Below are positions 1 through 8,775 of a DNA stretch of 64,000 nt, in pieces; the first letter of the stretch is position 1, and each line of letters begins with the position of its first letter. The stretch is from Acidobacteriota bacterium. Lineage in GTDB: Bacteria > Acidobacteriota > Terriglobia > 2-12-FULL-54-10. The stretch covers positions 43,214 through 107,213 of the forward strand of contig JACPPJ010000025.1 of NCBI GenBank assembly GCA_016191085.1, in the 5' to 3' direction. The position numbers and the translations under genes are program-made. Below the pieces are notes generated by a model that was given only the letters and a program-made list of their open reading frames with translations, searched no databases and was not told the DNA's origin.

Positions 1-1
1 C

Positions 2-637
2 GCCCAATCCCTTCGCCACGTGACAAACCCTTCGAACGCCAACAACCCCGATTATGGTGGAGCCGTCGAGGTGATGATTACGAGACCGGCGGGACCTACG
101 GACCCAAGTGCGGTTCCTACTGTTCCGAGCCTCTCAGGCGCTCGCTTTCTGCTGAAATACGGGTCTAACGGCAACGTCTTGATACAGCGACCGGAGAATA
201 ATCCGGGTGTTTACGGCTTTCTGATTTTCAAAAATAATCTGGACCAATTCGGTCTCAACATTTACGAGCCTGGCAATGCAGTCAATCCCAACAACGACAT
301 CAACTGGAAGCGGCCGATACCGGCTATTCTGGCGAACCGGGCGGGAAAAGGCTTAGTTGTTTACTACGCATTTGCGCCCGAGCTTCTGGTATCCTTGGAA
401 TTTGATCTGGCGGGCCATTGTTCGGGAGAGGCCGCCGATGCCAATTGCACAAATCTCAAGTACATGTGTACGACAGACGCCAACTATGCGTACCTAAACC
501 CCTCCGCTCTTTCTCCGGGCGATTCTCCCAATGCCGGGCCCGCACCTACGCCGGCGAATAATCTTTTTTTCAATCGGAGCACCGAGCTGAGACCGTTGAT
601 GAAGCAGACAGTGCTTTATTTGCTCAATAGTCCGTGA
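2..637 (+). CDS. hypothetical protein, C-terminal part (5' truncated by window edge)
   Basis: Frame is open to the window start (AQSLRHVTNPSNANNPDYGG...); ends at TGA 637; long ORF without a competing frame. Confidence 0.55.
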   Translation, partial: AQSLRHVTNPSNANNPDYGGAVEVMITRPAGPTDPSAVPTVPSLSGARFLLKYGSNGNVLIQRPENNPGVYGFLIFKNNLDQFGLNIYEPGNAVNPNNDINWKRPIPAILANRAGKGLVVYYAFAPELLVSLEFDLAGHCSGEAADANCTNLKYMCTTDANYAYLNPSALSPGDSPNAGPAPTPANNLFFNRSTELRPLMKQTVLYLLNSP

Positions 638-725: not shown

Positions 726-1487
726 TTGCGCAGGAAAGTCATTTATCCCCACAAAAGCCTGCGGCATATGCCCTTTGTTAAGAGTTTCTTGTTCCAGGGT
801 CTGGCCGTCGCCGCTCTGGCCGACACCCTGTTACTTTGGCAGATGCCCCGGATTCTCCAATGGCATTCGCAAGTGATCCAGACTTTTCTGGATTGGGCAA
901 GAGTCCCTTGGCAAATGGGGAGAGAAATCACGCTTGTGCCTGGAATCACTGCCAGGCTGCTACAGACGAGCTATCTAAATTATCAGGAGTACCCGTATTA
1001 TCCCTGGGCTTTTCTGGGAGGCGCGATCGCTGTGTTCCTAATCGGATACCGGTTGTGGCCGACGCCCATAAGGCCGCTGGTCTTCCTTCTGCCGGCGAGT
1101 CTTGCAATAACTTTAATTTACCTGGAAATCGTTTCCCCACTTGTTCCTTATACCCCGGAGGACTTCTGCTCCATTTGGTACCACGGCGAGGCTTATATTT
1201 GGCTACTTATTCCATGGATCTTCGCCGTGAGCTTCTTCACTTTGGCCGTGCCGTTTGTTATGAAAATCGGTTGGCTACCGCTGCTAATTTCCTACGCTTT
1301 CCTGTGGTCAGCGGTCCGGCTGACATTGGCTCTGACCACCTTTCATTACTTTGGGCCCATCTGGATGCCTTTCACTTATTTCATATTCGGCTTCTTAGCT
1401 GATTTCATGTACATTGTGACGTTCTACTCGCTGGCTTTGGACCGGGCGGCTAGGTGGCTGGCAACTCGAAGGGAGATTTGGCAATGA
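726..1487 (+). CDS. polytopic membrane protein in exopolysaccharide-type locus
   Basis: 253 aa, several hydrophobic segments; stop overlaps the GT2 start (ATGA). Confidence 0.65.
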   Translation: MRRKVIYPHKSLRHMPFVKSFLFQGLAVAALADTLLLWQMPRILQWHSQVIQTFLDWARVPWQMGREITLVPGITARLLQTSYLNYQEYPYYPWAFLGGAIAVFLIGYRLWPTPIRPLVFLLPASLAITLIYLEIVSPLVPYTPEDFCSIWYHGEAYIWLLIPWIFAVSFFTLAVPFVMKIGWLPLLISYAFLWSAVRLTLALTTFHYFGPIWMPFTYFIFGFLADFMYIVTFYSLALDRAARWLATRREIWQ

Positions 1488-2854
1488 TCTTCGTGGCCAG
1501 AGCAATTGCATTGGTAGTCACGGTGGTGATGGTGACTTATATGCTCCGTCACTTTGCCTTTGCCCTAAACCGTCTGTTCCGCCATCAAAGAATGAATTAT
1601 ACGGATCTGGCCGGCTTTCACCTTCCCTCTGTTTCCATTCTGATCCCAATGCACAACGAGGAGGACGTGGCTCCGGATGTGCTGGAGGCTCTGCTGGAAG
1701 CAGACTACCCGCACGATCCGGAACGCTTCGAGATCATCCCCATCAATGACCATTCGACCGATCGCACCGGAGAAATTCTAGATGCGTACGCTCTGCATAA
1801 TCCGCTGATCAAGCCCTTGCACCGGCAAAACGGAGAGCGCGGCAAATCTCCAACACTGAGAGAAGCTACCAAAATCGCCAGGGGAGAAGTGCTGGTAATT
1901 TTTGATGCCGACTATGTTCCCGGCAGAGCGATGTTGAAATTTCTGGCTGCTCCATTTGCCGACCCGGAGGTGGGGGCCGTAATGGGGCGTGTGGTGCCTC
2001 ACAATGTCGGATCATCGTTGCTGACCAGACTCATGGACTTAGAACGCGCCGGAGGATACCAGATCAATCAGCAAGCTCGCTACAACCTGAACTTGCTCCC
2101 GCAGTACGGGGGTACCGCGGGCGGCGTTCGACGGGTTGCGCTCGAGGCCGCTGGTGAGTGGGATAGCAGCTCACTGACGGAGGACACTGAATTGACAGTG
2201 CGGTTGGCGATTCTCGGTTGGAAGGTTGCTTATATCAACCGCGCTGAGTGTTATGAGGAAGTACCGGAGAACTGGGATGTGCGCCGCAAGCAGATCGAGC
2301 GTTGGGCCATTGGCCACACGGAATGTTTTCATCGCTATCTCGGGAAAATGCTTCGTTCGCCCTGCCTGAGTTGGAAAGCCAAGGTGGATGGAGTCCTGCT
2401 TCTGGGTGTATATCTCACGGCGCCGCTGATCGTGCTAGGGCTGTTGGCATGCGTAGTACTCTTTTTTGGCGGGCAAACGTATCTCCCCGCCTTGACCGCC
2501 TTCTTTATCGCAAGCACGGCCTACAACTGCTTGGGTAATTTTGCCTCTTTCTTCGAAATCGGCACTAGTGTGGTTCTGGACGGAGGTCAGCAGCGGGTTC
2601 GTTTATTGAGCCTCAATATTGCTAACTCCATCTTCAGCACGGCGACGGTCACGCTTGCTCTCGCCAAATATTACGGACGTCGGTTTTTCGGCCGACCTCT
2701 TCCTCCCTGGAGTAAGACGAAGCGATTTCGTAATGGGAACGGAAATGGAAATGGCAATGGTAACGGCAGCGGCACCTCGGATCCTACATCGAGAGAACGC
2801 GGCCTGAAATTCATCTTGGCGAGAAACACTCTAAGAAAGTCTGTCACCTCTTGA
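1484..2854 (+). CDS. family 2 glycosyltransferase (processive, membrane)
   Basis: VSILIPMHNEEDV...NDHSTDRT...IFDADYVPG...TEDTELTVRL...QIERWAIGH, C-terminal TM helices; ATG at 1484 preceded by GGGAG; ORF track start 1454 is probably too early. Confidence 0.9.
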   Translation: MIFVARAIALVVTVVMVTYMLRHFAFALNRLFRHQRMNYTDLAGFHLPSVSILIPMHNEEDVAPDVLEALLEADYPHDPERFEIIPINDHSTDRTGEILDAYALHNPLIKPLHRQNGERGKSPTLREATKIARGEVLVIFDADYVPGRAMLKFLAAPFADPEVGAVMGRVVPHNVGSSLLTRLMDLERAGGYQINQQARYNLNLLPQYGGTAGGVRRVALEAAGEWDSSSLTEDTELTVRLAILGWKVAYINRAECYEEVPENWDVRRKQIERWAIGHTECFHRYLGKMLRSPCLSWKAKVDGVLLLGVYLTAPLIVLGLLACVVLFFGGQTYLPALTAFFIASTAYNCLGNFASFFEIGTSVVLDGGQQRVRLLSLNIANSIFSTATVTLALAKYYGRRFFGRPLPPWSKTKRFRNGNGNGNGNGNGSGTSDPTSRERGLKFILARNTLRKSVTS

Positions 2855-2870
2855 TATTGGTGGAATCTTC

Positions 2871-4895
2871 TTGATCCTGGTACTTTTACTCCTCTTCCTG
2901 GCACTGCTGGGACTAAATTTCTATTTTGGCGTTCGCGAATGGTGGCATCCCAAGGATAGCGCGCCCCTTCCCGTGGATGTGGAATACGTGCGAGTCGAAA
3001 ACTACTTCGGGAAGTCCTTTCGCACCAAGATGCAGGAATGGTTGCAGACGGCCTCCCCGGTCGAAACAACAAAGCCATGCGAGCCCCCCATGAAATCCCT
3101 ACTGGAAAAACCGAATCACGAGAGAATCCTGATCTTGACGGGCGGGTTGTTGAGCGGCGATGGCCATGAGGCATTGGTCTATTGTGAAGGCGACTTGCAA
3201 CTCTCCGACCACTGCTCGCTCCATCGCGAGGTGTACTGTCGAGGCAACCTAAACAGTGGAACCGGTGTGCAATTCCAAGCCCTTGCGGCAGATGGGGAAA
3301 TCATTCTAGGGCCCGAGAACGATGTGTCGAGATGGGTGGATGCACATCGTAAGATCCTGCTGGGGAGGGGTACGGTGATCCACAGCCGAGTGAGTTCCTC
3401 GGAATCAATAGAACTGGAAGAGCAAGTCGCTGCGCAATCTCTGTATGCCTCGGTGGTTTTTACGACAGGATATCGACCCTGTGAGCCGGCGGACATTGCA
3501 GCGCAGATGGAAGATTCCATAGAAGAAACTCCGGACGGAGTTGGCCAGCACGCATCGCCCTTCCCAGAGGATTGCTCCGTTTCACAGCTGGCTGCTGATA
3601 CTTGGCTGGTTCGCGGCGACCTGCATTTGCCCGAAGGCAAACGAGTGGCAACCAATATAATCGTCCGCGGTGCCCTTACCACCGGTCCTGATTGCGAATT
3701 TTGGGGGGATGTAAAAGCGGACCGCGCTGAGCTGGGTTTGCGCAACAGAGTTCATGGAAATCTCGTTTCCGGTGGCGGTATCGCGATCGGCGAATCCGGG
3801 TGGGTGGGCAAGAGTATCGCAGCGGAAACCGATATCTTGCTCCACTCCGGCGTGCGTGTAGGGACGCCAGCGATCCTGGCGGCAGTCAGCGCCGGGAAGG
3901 AAGTGAAGATGGAAGCTGACGTTGCCGTCTATGGCAAGGTGACAGGAGGCCAAGCCGTAAAATCGGTCGGCAAGATTGACGCTGATTGCGATGTGAAACC
4001 GCGGGCGAAGAAGAGATGGTTCGCTGTGACTGTTCTTCTGGCGCTGGTCATCTGCCAACTTCGGATGCCCGTATTTGCCCAGGCCGAGCGGCAGCTCCCC
4101 TTTACGCAACCGCAGGAGAACTCGAGTGCTCGAGCGGCCAACCCATCGGACCCAGCGCTGGGGGACCCGACCGGCAACTATCGGTTTCGCCTTGAGGCCG
4201 GCGGTTTTGACAATGCCGTCAGCAACAGGTTCGGCCAATGGTGGGGCGGCCTCATATCGCTCTCATACAAACCGTCGAACCGCGTCACTACGTCCGCCAG
4301 TCTCATCTCGCAAACTCGCCCGGCGGGAACTGAGCAACTCGTGACCTTGGATACAGTTATTGACTGGTCGAAATGGTTTTATACGCAGATAGGCGTGAGC
4401 GGTGGTGGAGCAGACGATCCAGCAGCTTTCTTCCCGCGCTACCGCTATGATATCAACGGCTTCTTCAAAGTTCCAGGAAAGCCGGCGCTGGTTCTCGACG
4501 GCGGTTACACTCGCCTGCAATTTGGAGCTCCCGTCGGTGGTCGCATCTCAAGAATGGGTGCCATTTATTATTGGCGGAAGTTTGTTTTCCAGGGAAATTT
4601 AAACTTCAACAATGTGCGTCCTGGCAACCATAAATCGAAGTCCGTCTCGGGTGCTGTTCAATATGGGCAGGAAGGCCATTATTGGATAGGCCTCACGATG
4701 GGTGGAGGGCGGGAAGCGTGGCAGACTCTGACTCTGACCCCTCAGGACGTTCAATTTACCAGTTACAGTACTTCAGTTTTCCTCCGGAAGTGGTTTACAC
4801 CTCGTCATGGCATGGCGTTTTCTTACAATTACGCGGTCAAGCGAGCTGCCTATAGAATCAATGGGGTGGATGTAAGATTCTTCGTAGATTTCTGA
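2871..4895 (+). CDS. fusion: N-terminal TM + bactofilin-like beta-helix (polymer-forming) region + internal signal-peptide-like segment + YaiO-like outer-membrane beta-barrel
   Basis: GDLHLPEGKRVATNIIVRGALTTGPDCEFWGDVKADRAELG... resembles the bactofilin fold; RAKKRWFAVTVLLALVICQLRMPVFAQA internal signal-like; C-terminal amphipathic strands ending VDVRFFVDF. Confidence 0.75.
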   Translation: MILVLLLLFLALLGLNFYFGVREWWHPKDSAPLPVDVEYVRVENYFGKSFRTKMQEWLQTASPVETTKPCEPPMKSLLEKPNHERILILTGGLLSGDGHEALVYCEGDLQLSDHCSLHREVYCRGNLNSGTGVQFQALAADGEIILGPENDVSRWVDAHRKILLGRGTVIHSRVSSSESIELEEQVAAQSLYASVVFTTGYRPCEPADIAAQMEDSIEETPDGVGQHASPFPEDCSVSQLAADTWLVRGDLHLPEGKRVATNIIVRGALTTGPDCEFWGDVKADRAELGLRNRVHGNLVSGGGIAIGESGWVGKSIAAETDILLHSGVRVGTPAILAAVSAGKEVKMEADVAVYGKVTGGQAVKSVGKIDADCDVKPRAKKRWFAVTVLLALVICQLRMPVFAQAERQLPFTQPQENSSARAANPSDPALGDPTGNYRFRLEAGGFDNAVSNRFGQWWGGLISLSYKPSNRVTTSASLISQTRPAGTEQLVTLDTVIDWSKWFYTQIGVSGGGADDPAAFFPRYRYDINGFFKVPGKPALVLDGGYTRLQFGAPVGGRISRMGAIYYWRKFVFQGNLNFNNVRPGNHKSKSVSGAVQYGQEGHYWIGLTMGGGREAWQTLTLTPQDVQFTSYSTSVFLRKWFTPRHGMAFSYNYAVKRAAYRINGVDVRFFVDF

Positions 4896-4934: not shown

Positions 4935-5792
4935 TCACTTAACGCACGAGTGATCACAACTCGCGACTGAGATACCGGTCAATTTAGCTGTTCTTGAAAT
5001 TCGGCTCGCTCTTTCTCGCTGCCATGAGGGTTGGGCGCGGCCCGGCATGACGGTGAAGCGCGCTGGGATGTTTCTTGGAAAACTGCGATCGAACTCTTCG
5101 GCAACTACCCAATGACACTCGCACACGATGGCTTCCAATCTCCGCCGGTCCACGATCTTAATATTGTTGTATTGATACTCTATGAGTCCGCCCTGGCGGA
5201 AACGAATCGCCGCTTTGGTCACTTCCGAACGGGGAGCGCCCAGTATCCGGCCCATGAATTCTTGGGTCATGGGAAATTCTTTGGAGCCGATCCGATCATG
5301 AATAGTCAAGAGCAGCCGGGCGAGCCGCCTTTTCAGCAAGTGGACACGGTTGCAAGCCGCGGATTGAGAGGTCATCAATATCTGGCATCGGATGTAATCC
5401 AATATTTTTCTTTGGAATATTCCGTCTCGCTGGAATTCAGCTAAAAATGCATCTGCCTTCATACGCAAAGCGCTGCCAGTGATCTCGACGACAGCCTCGT
5501 GAAAAGAGCTCCGGCCACCCAAGGCAATGTAAGTTCCAAGCAGTCCCGGGTTCCCAACGACCCCGACCTCGACGCTCTTGCCATCCTCCAAATAGGTGAG
5601 TAACGAGATTAAGGATTGCTCTGGGAAATAAACGTATCGCATTGGGCCATCGCATTCGTACAGAATTTCATTCTGGCGCAATGTGACCTGTTCCAGGCTG
5701 GGAAGCAGGCGCAGATAGTCCCGGGTGGGAAGAGCGACGAGCAGGCGATTGTCGGGCAAACGGAATTTCGGTGGAGGGAAAGCGAACTCCAT
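4935..5792 (-). CDS. Crp/Fnr family transcriptional regulator
   Basis: Cyclic-nucleotide-binding-like domain (LRQNEILYECDGPMRYVYFPEQSLISLL...VEVGVVGNPGLLG) and C-terminal HTH-like MTQEFMGRILGAPRSEVTKAA. Confidence 0.8.
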   Translation of the reverse strand: MEFAFPPPKFRLPDNRLLVALPTRDYLRLLPSLEQVTLRQNEILYECDGPMRYVYFPEQSLISLLTYLEDGKSVEVGVVGNPGLLGTYIALGGRSSFHEAVVEITGSALRMKADAFLAEFQRDGIFQRKILDYIRCQILMTSQSAACNRVHLLKRRLARLLLTIHDRIGSKEFPMTQEFMGRILGAPRSEVTKAAIRFRQGGLIEYQYNNIKIVDRRRLEAIVCECHWVVAEEFDRSFPRNIPARFTVMPGRAQPSWQRERASRISRTAKLTGISVASCDHSCVK

Positions 5793-6266
5793 GGCGTCAT
5801 CCTTCCTATGTAAATCTCACGAGTAGTTGCCATGTTGCATTCTGCTTCTATATTCTGCCAGTTTTTCCGATCCAACAGCAATATCCCATAGTACTTTGGT
5901 CCCAAATTCGTACCAGGACAGACGAACTTCGTTTCCCCGAGCCTCGGCAAACGTTTCTCGGGCCAATTATAAATGCCACTCTGCAAAGCAATGTTCTTGA
6001 CGGATCAAACCCGAGATATTCTCTCTGGGCTCGCAGCACAGCGAGAACCAGAGTAATTGGCTTGTCTGATTTAGGCGGTAGTCTCCGCGAATTGTCGAAG
6101 TCTTGAGCAACGGCTGTCAAGGCACCGTCAGATGGGTCCTGCAAAATTCGCGCAAGACTATCGGATTTTCTGGAAATGCGCTGAAAACAAAACATGTTAC
6201 TCCATCGTCGCCCGGAATCCTGCCCGCATTTCATATTTGGTGGGCTGCTTGCAAGTATATGGGTAT

Positions 6267-6995
6267 ATGAAGCCAACGGACCCTGCCAGCATCTTGAACT
6301 TTGAATTGCCTAGGAATCGACTTCTACGAGGTCTACCCAGAACTGAGTTGGTTCGTTTGCTTCGCAATGTGGAGCCCGTTTCACTGGTACAGAATGACGT
6401 CCTATACGAACGCGGTGCCCGGATTCGATACGTCTTCTTCTTGGAGCAAAGCGTGGTCTCGCTGCTGGCGACTCTGAGCGATGGCACGAACGTTGAAGTG
6501 GCCGTACTCGGGAGTCGAGGCTTTTTAGGGGTTCCCCTCGCACTTGGCGGCCAATCCTCTCAGCATATGGCTATTGTCCAGATCGCTGGCAACGCGCTAA
6601 GAATGAAAGCCGAGACCTTCTTGACCGAATTTGAGCGTGGTGGCATTTTCCGAAAATTACTGCTGAACTATTCCCAATCCTTAATTCTAACCATCTCGGA
6701 AACCGCAGTTTGCAACGACCGCCACCCGCTGGACAAGAGGCTTGCCCGTCTCCTACTAACAATCCATGATGAATTCGGTTCTGCGGAATTTCCTACCACT
6801 GATCAGTTTCTAAGCGGCACGTTGATTGCCGCGCCTGCAGAAATTGCAAATGCAGCGGCTCTTTTCCACCGCGACAGATTGATTGACTATACGGGCGGCA
6901 CCGTTAGAATCCTTGACCGGCGAGGCCTTGAGGCAAACGCTTGCCAATGTTATCGGAAACTCAACAGAGCGTGTGACAGCGTCCTCATTCAGTAG
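6267..6995 (+). CDS. Crp/Fnr family regulator-like paralog
   Basis: Paralog of 4935..5792 (VSLVQNDVLYERGARIRYVFFLEQSVVSLLATLSDGTNVEVAVLGSRGFLGVPLALGG); likely ATG at 6267 (MKPTDPASIL); track start 6132 is upstream. Confidence 0.75.
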   Translation: MKPTDPASILNFELPRNRLLRGLPRTELVRLLRNVEPVSLVQNDVLYERGARIRYVFFLEQSVVSLLATLSDGTNVEVAVLGSRGFLGVPLALGGQSSQHMAIVQIAGNALRMKAETFLTEFERGGIFRKLLLNYSQSLILTISETAVCNDRHPLDKRLARLLLTIHDEFGSAEFPTTDQFLSGTLIAAPAEIANAAALFHRDRLIDYTGGTVRILDRRGLEANACQCYRKLNRACDSVLIQ

Positions 6996-7605: not shown

Positions 7606-8775
7606 CTATGACGGTATATTTTTTTTCTGTCTGAAGCTTTCAATCATTCTGTCAATGGCGATCTTGTGGCGCTTAGCAACATCCTCGCCAGCGGCGATCC
7701 ACTCTTCGTCCGAAATTGCCTTAAAGACATCCACCACATCCTTGTCAAACTGGCTGCCGCTATACCGAATGATTTCTGTGCGCGCTTCGGCTGTACTGCG
7801 GGGCGAGCAATAGGGGCGGCCAGCGGTGATCACGTCGAAGGTGTCGGCCACAGCGAAAATCCGAGCTTCTATTGGAATAGAGTCTCGTTTTAGGTGCAAG
7901 GGGTATCCCTCACCGTCAATCCTTTCGTGATGAAGGAGGGCGACCCTTGCAGCCTGCTGGAGATGCGGGATACGTGAGAGAACCTGGTAGCCAAAGATGG
8001 AGTGATGTTGAACGATCCGAAATTCTGGAGCTGTTAGTCTGGCCGGTTTTAGCAAGATGGCGTCCGGGATGGCAATTTTGCCGATATCATGCAGCAGGGC
8101 GCCGTAGCTCAAATGTTTCATCAGAGCACTGCTGTAGCCACACCTTTCGGCCAACAACAGAGTGAATTTCTGCACCCTCAGCGAGTGTAGGTCGCGTTGG
8201 TGTTCCCGCGCGTCTAGCGCGGCTGCCAGCATTGCCAGTCCGGGCCTCTGCATTTCTCCCGCCCGCTGTAAGGCACTATGCAGATGCTCAGCGCGGTCGT
8301 GAAGAGTTTGTTCGACCAGCGTCTGGAATATTTCCTGCTCGATTACCGATAGCTGCTTTTCTAATGAGCGCTCCACATCAGCAACCAATTCCTCGCATGT
8401 GAACGGTTTGTGAATGCAGTCATAAGCCCCTATTTTCATTGCCTCGATCTCCAGGACCGAATCGAGAGGATCGCTTAGCATCAGGAACGCTGCTTGTGGA
8501 TTTGTGCGCAGACCCCGGCGTAAGAGTTGAACACCGGTCATTCCTGTAAGCCGCAGAGAGCAAAGGACCACATCGAACTGCGATTCTCGGAGAAGCTCCA
8601 AGGCTACAGTTGCTCTCGTTGCAGTTACACAGTGATAGCGAGGCGGAGGGAAACAGGATTGAATTGTCGCGACAACGTCATGGTTTGCATCGATGACCAA
8701 CAGTTCAATGGGATTTGGGAAATTTTCCATAATGCCGCTCTCAAATCGAGGGCTTAGGTTCGTGACTGCTAGCAA
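7606..8775 (-). CDS. receiver-like domain + HD-GYP phosphodiesterase
   Basis: LLHDIGKIAIPD and HHERIDGEGYP HD-GYP signatures; N-terminal CheY-like fold with KPF. Confidence 0.88.
   Translation of the reverse strand: MLAVTNLSPRFESGIMENFPNPIELLVIDANHDVVATIQSCFPPPRYHCVTATRATVALELLRESQFDVVLCSLRLTGMTGVQLLRRGLRTNPQAAFLMLSDPLDSVLEIEAMKIGAYDCIHKPFTCEELVADVERSLEKQLSVIEQEIFQTLVEQTLHDRAEHLHSALQRAGEMQRPGLAMLAAALDAREHQRDLHSLRVQKFTLLLAERCGYSSALMKHLSYGALLHDIGKIAIPDAILLKPARLTAPEFRIVQHHSIFGYQVLSRIPHLQQAARVALLHHERIDGEGYPLHLKRDSIPIEARIFAVADTFDVITAGRPYCSPRSTAEARTEIIRYSGSQFDKDVVDVFKAISDEEWIAAGEDVAKRHKIAIDRMIESFRQKKNIPS

Follow-up and report, generated by a model that had tools for sequence, protein, structure and literature searches.

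A single reading frame within a probable acidobacterial polysaccharide gene cassette joins a membrane-anchored beta-helix protein to an outer-membrane barrel of the YaiO family. The locus lies in the window, the whole 64,000-nucleotide stretch of DNA analysed here, which comes from a draft assembly of 82 contigs that is 88% complete. The following features were assigned.

726..1487, + strand: multipass membrane protein of 253 aa with a PHKSLRH motif; homologues lie beside GT2/yaiO genes at 10 loci including the window
1454..2854, + strand: GT2 polysaccharide synthase-like glycosyltransferase (PF00535, 1e-25)
2871..4895, + strand: fused ORF, TM-beta-helix plus YaiO, a single open frame
2874..2945, + strand: TM helix 1, residues 2-25, predicted N-out/C-in (AlphaFold; charge bias in 22 homologues)
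3090..3965, + strand: beta-helix (bactofilin-like) domain, residues 74-365 (AlphaFold pLDDT mostly >90; PF04519 sub-threshold)
3966..3992, + strand: junction, with the aligned stop of close relatives at ~3969 (junction comparison; one-base neighbours of stops)
3993..3995, + strand: in-frame GTG at the yaiO start position of relatives (SD duplex energy only +0.3 kcal/mol)
3993..4085, + strand: internal YaiO signal peptide, predicted from sequence to be cut after FAQA (residue 405)
4185..4889, + strand: YaiO outer-membrane beta-barrel, 14 strands (TIGR04390, 3.6e-34; AlphaFold; Foldseek)

Domains of the fused reading frame

The frame is open from TTG 2871 to TGA 4893-4895, giving the uninterrupted 674 codons described in an earlier note on this DNA, and reaches 686 codons if it is followed further upstream. 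An AlphaFold model of the product, which that note had recommended, contains the proposed N-terminal TM helix (residues 2-25) and a beta-solenoid at about residues 74-365 (pLDDT mostly >90). A linker modelled with low confidence, in which residues 381-397 form a helix, leads from there to a 14-strand barrel at 439-673.

The C-terminal third is beyond doubt a YaiO barrel, as had been proposed. Residues 440-674 match TIGR04390 with an E-value of 3.6e-34 (118.7 bits against a cut-off of 32), PF19413 matches the same part of the protein at 2.8e-17, and TIGR04390 is matched by all seven aligned sequences. Whereas E. coli makes YaiO as a stand-alone protein, the window barrel, whose 235 C-terminal residues score well above the family cut-off, is fused behind a TM-beta-helix protein. 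The E. coli neighbourhood is similar as well, with the GT2 gene yaiP near yaiO as a GT2 gene is near YaiO in the window. A Foldseek search with the barrel model returned OmpG and FadL, with the polysaccharide pore PgaA (4y25) at rank 6; a general likeness among barrels would suffice to account for these matches.

In front of the barrel lies the hydrophobic segment WFAVTVLLALVICQL (residues 383-397, mean hydropathy 2.4), preceded by KPRAKKR and closed by FAQA at residues 402-405. Judged from sequence, the layout KPRAKKR-WFAVTVLLALVICQL-RMPVFAQA is that of a putative internal signal peptide, with the basic residues and the AxA-like site that the earlier note had pointed out.

The same note called the N-terminal region bactofilin-like, and of this reading the solenoid fold stands in the AlphaFold model while the family match falls short. 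PF04519 scores 15.8 bits on this part of the protein, or 18.3 bits when it is scanned without the barrel, against a cut-off of 27.9; the weak similarity is located in residues 272-360, and one distant homologue is barely above the cut-off at 28.3 bits. A profile search of the PDB with the beta-helix gave bactofilin matches at E-values of 0.3-0.4, and a PDB fold search gave no significant match to bactofilins or to any other structure. Because of these results the domain is named bactofilin-like and is not a bactofilin. It shares with bactofilins the beta-helix fold, the weak profile similarity and a predicted cytoplasmic location, but it differs in its score below the Pfam cut-off, its N-terminal TM anchor, its lack of a significant PDB fold match and its long, two-part solenoid of ~290 residues.

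A conserved gene cassette

The earlier note had observed that the frame directly follows a GT2 synthase gene and had suggested a link to polysaccharide synthesis; both the GT2 gene (1454..2854) and conservation of the cassette bear this out. The GT2 protein has PgaC/IcaA as its best NCBIfam model (5e-36, below the cut-off of that model), and DAD, TED and QxxRW motifs are visible in its sequence. It carries GKSPTL at a site where relatives have GKAAAL, and its other catalytic motifs look intact.

The gene order multipass protein, GT2, TM-beta-helix and YaiO occurs in the window, in a second cassette carried by the same genome, and in the genomes G003, G068, G310 and G245, so that a synthase and an outer-membrane barrel are encoded together and kept together in relatives. 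G352 has the first three genes, with YaiO absent from the 11 kb that were read. The loci of G367 and G085 are rearranged to UDP-GlcNAc 2-epimerase, GT2 (scored in G367 and masked by an overlap filter in G085), beta-helix, a protein of ~630 aa, YaiO and multipass protein, and G367 has an additional glycoside-hydrolase-like gene between the beta-helix gene and that for the ~630-aa protein. The latter is deacetylase-like, with a weak Polysacc_deac_1 match. Extended cassettes with UDP-GlcNAc 2-epimerase and the ~630-aa deacetylase-like protein occur in other Acidobacteria families (L065:2225-10462 and L066:1217-8372).

The multipass family with the PHKSLRH motif is a regular partner of the GT2, beta-helix and YaiO genes, the 10 loci having been counted among those read with wide flanks. 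Its window member has no Pfam or NCBIfam match, and an identification as exosortase was dropped for want of conservation of its Cys. Window positions 1-637 (L021:9465-10637), immediately upstream of the cassette, belong to a protein of 390 aa that begins with a hydrophobic segment in its N-terminal part and weakly resembles DUF4350 / GH42 trimerisation domains. The cassette is followed directly by a divergent pair of Crp-type regulator genes (4935-5792, - strand; 6132-6995, + strand), and an HD-GYP response regulator, which might or might not bear on c-di-GMP control of the cassette, is encoded at 7606-8775 (- strand).

The second copy (G000:C18:95345-97289; L015:5343-9413) is an unfused version of the four-gene cassette, 46% identical to the window copy in the beta-helix and 56% in YaiO. 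A dual-specificity phosphatase gene neighbours the cassette in this copy, in G003 and in G001. Because the unfused copy shares this neighbour with the other genomes, the additional copy is probably the fused one.

In its make-up the conserved cassette looks like a locus for synthase-dependent polysaccharide export, whose polymer would pass through YaiO. It resembles Pga/PNAG systems in that its GT2 protein is related to PgaC, the barrel model matches PgaA (4y25) among others, and a deacetylase-like gene is present in the cassettes of some relatives. However, it differs from them in including a beta-helix protein and a multipass protein of no known family, and a Pfam scan of the cassette genes gave no TPR match. 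Our literature search found no published study of the Acidobacteria cassette, and papers on YaiO mostly concern PCR detection. A cytoplasmic belt lies beneath the cellulose export sites of Gluconacetobacter (PMC7811197), an analogy that serves as a lead to the role of a tethered beta-helix protein and not as evidence for it.

The junction and the separate genes of relatives

Relatives were collected by whole-genome searches over overlapping samples of 399 genomes of the class and 396 of the phylum. This yielded 41 beta-helix loci for comparison, 25 of them with an adjacent yaiO gene (both counts include the duplicates G001 and G048). Only the window is fused among the 25; the other 24 loci, among them the unfused copy described above, keep separate ORFs. 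The search for homologues with the same domain order, which the earlier note had proposed, accordingly found two genes in every relative examined, which is one half of what the note had named as a refutation of its reading, the other half being a stop or frameshift revealed by resequencing. Fusion as a conserved architecture is rejected, since no second fused locus exists among the 41, and the fusion was found in no second genome among those sampled.

A 638-aa frame in G085 (L040) was considered as a second fusion and rejected because its extra length lies upstream of the beta-helix, where it seems to be the preceding gene read out of frame. The yaiO and beta-helix genes of one Bryobacterales genome are convergent rather than tandem (L060:1736-3855). 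G004 has two yaiO copies at contig ends (L016 and L022, on C89 and C382) that are 92% identical over 113 residues, reflecting either recent duplication or variation between strains within the assembly.

The closest homologue, from G004 and 57% identical, reads GKVTAGRAVLAV-TGA-TCG-TGA-GAT-GCT-GTC-ATG AAA CGT, where two in-frame stops precede a separate yaiO gene whose ATG keeps to the same frame. At the junction the window reads GKVTGGQAVKSV-GKIDADCD-VKPRAKKR. The beta-helix stop of close relatives aligns with window position ~3969; it is at the same aligned place in G001, G003, G006 and the unfused copy, where yaiO is in another frame. Because the window alone is fused among the 25 loci with adjacent yaiO, the fusion is, on this sequence comparison, a derived state reached by stop loss and unique within the sample compared.

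A consensus or assembly error, in which case the true genome would keep the stop and the two proteins would be made separately, is an unlikely source of this state. At four junction codons a single substitution would create a stop, and if one base were missing before 3977, TGA 3977 or TGA 3983 would come into frame. Such an error would also fit the split genes of all relatives and the broken frames in three of the 25 loci compared, which come from draft genomes (yaiO twice, beta-helix once). However, the frame is otherwise intact and conserved over its 674 codons, and consensus errors per base are rare in well-covered contigs. The broken frames themselves, those of yaiO in L030 and L034 (two frames each) and of the beta-helix gene in L026, are either pseudogenes or sequence errors.

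Topology, translation and processing

Among 22 homologues with a clear TM1, the stretch from the nearest start codon to TM1 contains no K or R, and the 15 residues after TM1 contain 70 in all, or ~3 for each protein. By the positive-inside rule, TM1 is predicted to be N-out/C-in and the beta-helix to be cytoplasmic. With the beta-helix on this side, the yaiO signal peptide and its basic n-region would be correctly oriented in the fused chain.

These charges and the two-gene state of all relatives speak against the trans-envelope scaffold that the earlier note had listed, which we reject as the default. An uncleaved protein tying a cytoplasmic beta-helix to an outer-membrane barrel would agree with the one continuous frame and with the low-confidence, probably flexible linker modelled after the internal helix and ahead of the barrel. 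It is nevertheless highly improbable, given that the chain retains a consensus-like signal peptidase site, that the ~40 residues from the hydrophobic segment (383-397) to the barrel (439) are short for crossing the periplasm, and that the architecture occurs in no relative examined.

The in-frame GTG at 3993, suggested previously as an internal start, does sit at the ancestral yaiO start position, directly before a complete signal peptide. If YaiO were made mainly from this codon, a true fused frame would yield two proteins and some fused by-product. No SD match precedes the GTG, with a duplex energy of +0.3 kcal/mol compared to a background median of -2.7. The yaiO starts of five close relatives likewise show no strong match (+0.4 to -3.7), whereas an SD site is present before yaiO in some distant relatives. 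In close relatives the yaiO start ranges from 4 nt overlapping the upstream stop to ~31 nt past it, and this spacing together with the lack of a strong SD suggests coupled re-initiation. With the stop gone, and no other in-frame stop nearby, this route is closed in the window, and we consider predominant initiation at the GTG quite unlikely.

We therefore favour, at a probability of roughly 0.6, an in-frame fusion of two ancestrally separate neighbours through stop-codon loss, yielding one precursor that is cut by signal peptidase. The sequences themselves show the fused frame, the two-gene state of all relatives examined and the place of the lost stop; the steps from translation to cleavage, including the cut of a signal peptide ~380 residues into the chain, are those that we infer. 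Ribosomes that no longer meet the stop between the two cassette genes would run on into yaiO and make one precursor, whose TM1 would insert N-out/C-in and whose bactofilin-like beta-helix would remain in the cytoplasm beside the GT2 synthase. The yaiO signal peptide would then act as an internal export signal, with the chain crossing the membrane at residues 383-397, and signal peptidase I would cleave after FAQA (405) to release a normal barrel that chaperones and BAM would carry to the outer membrane in the usual way. Left behind would be a beta-helix protein with two membrane passes. The two products would work much as the unfused pair does, one as a scaffold for the synthase at the inner membrane, the other as a pore that lets the polymer out through the outer membrane. 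Given the lost stop, the full signal peptide and a workable topology, a trans-envelope polypeptide is not needed.

Bradyrhizobium fbcH encodes a cytochrome b/c1 precursor that is split at an internal signal peptide, and the product proposed here would likewise be a bacterial polyprotein separated at such a site. However, fbcH serves a respiratory complex and is conserved in its lineage, whereas the window fusion is confined to a single genome. That the fusion is a polyprotein, split by signal peptidase, which delivers at a fixed 1:1 ratio a cytoskeleton-like scaffold to the cytoplasm and a polysaccharide pore to the outer membrane is a tentative proposal that we regard as somewhat doubtful.

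Taken alone, the fusion is a single-lineage curiosity with an ordinary evolutionary origin, or an error. It does show that the topology of the beta-helix protein is compatible with that of the yaiO signal peptide, and in the conserved Acidobacteria cassette to which it belongs a polysaccharide synthase and an outer-membrane pore regularly have a membrane-tethered bactofilin-like protein as their partner. Should the precursor indeed be made and cut, it would stand as a rare case of a bacterial polyprotein with one product on the cytoplasmic side and the other in the outer membrane.
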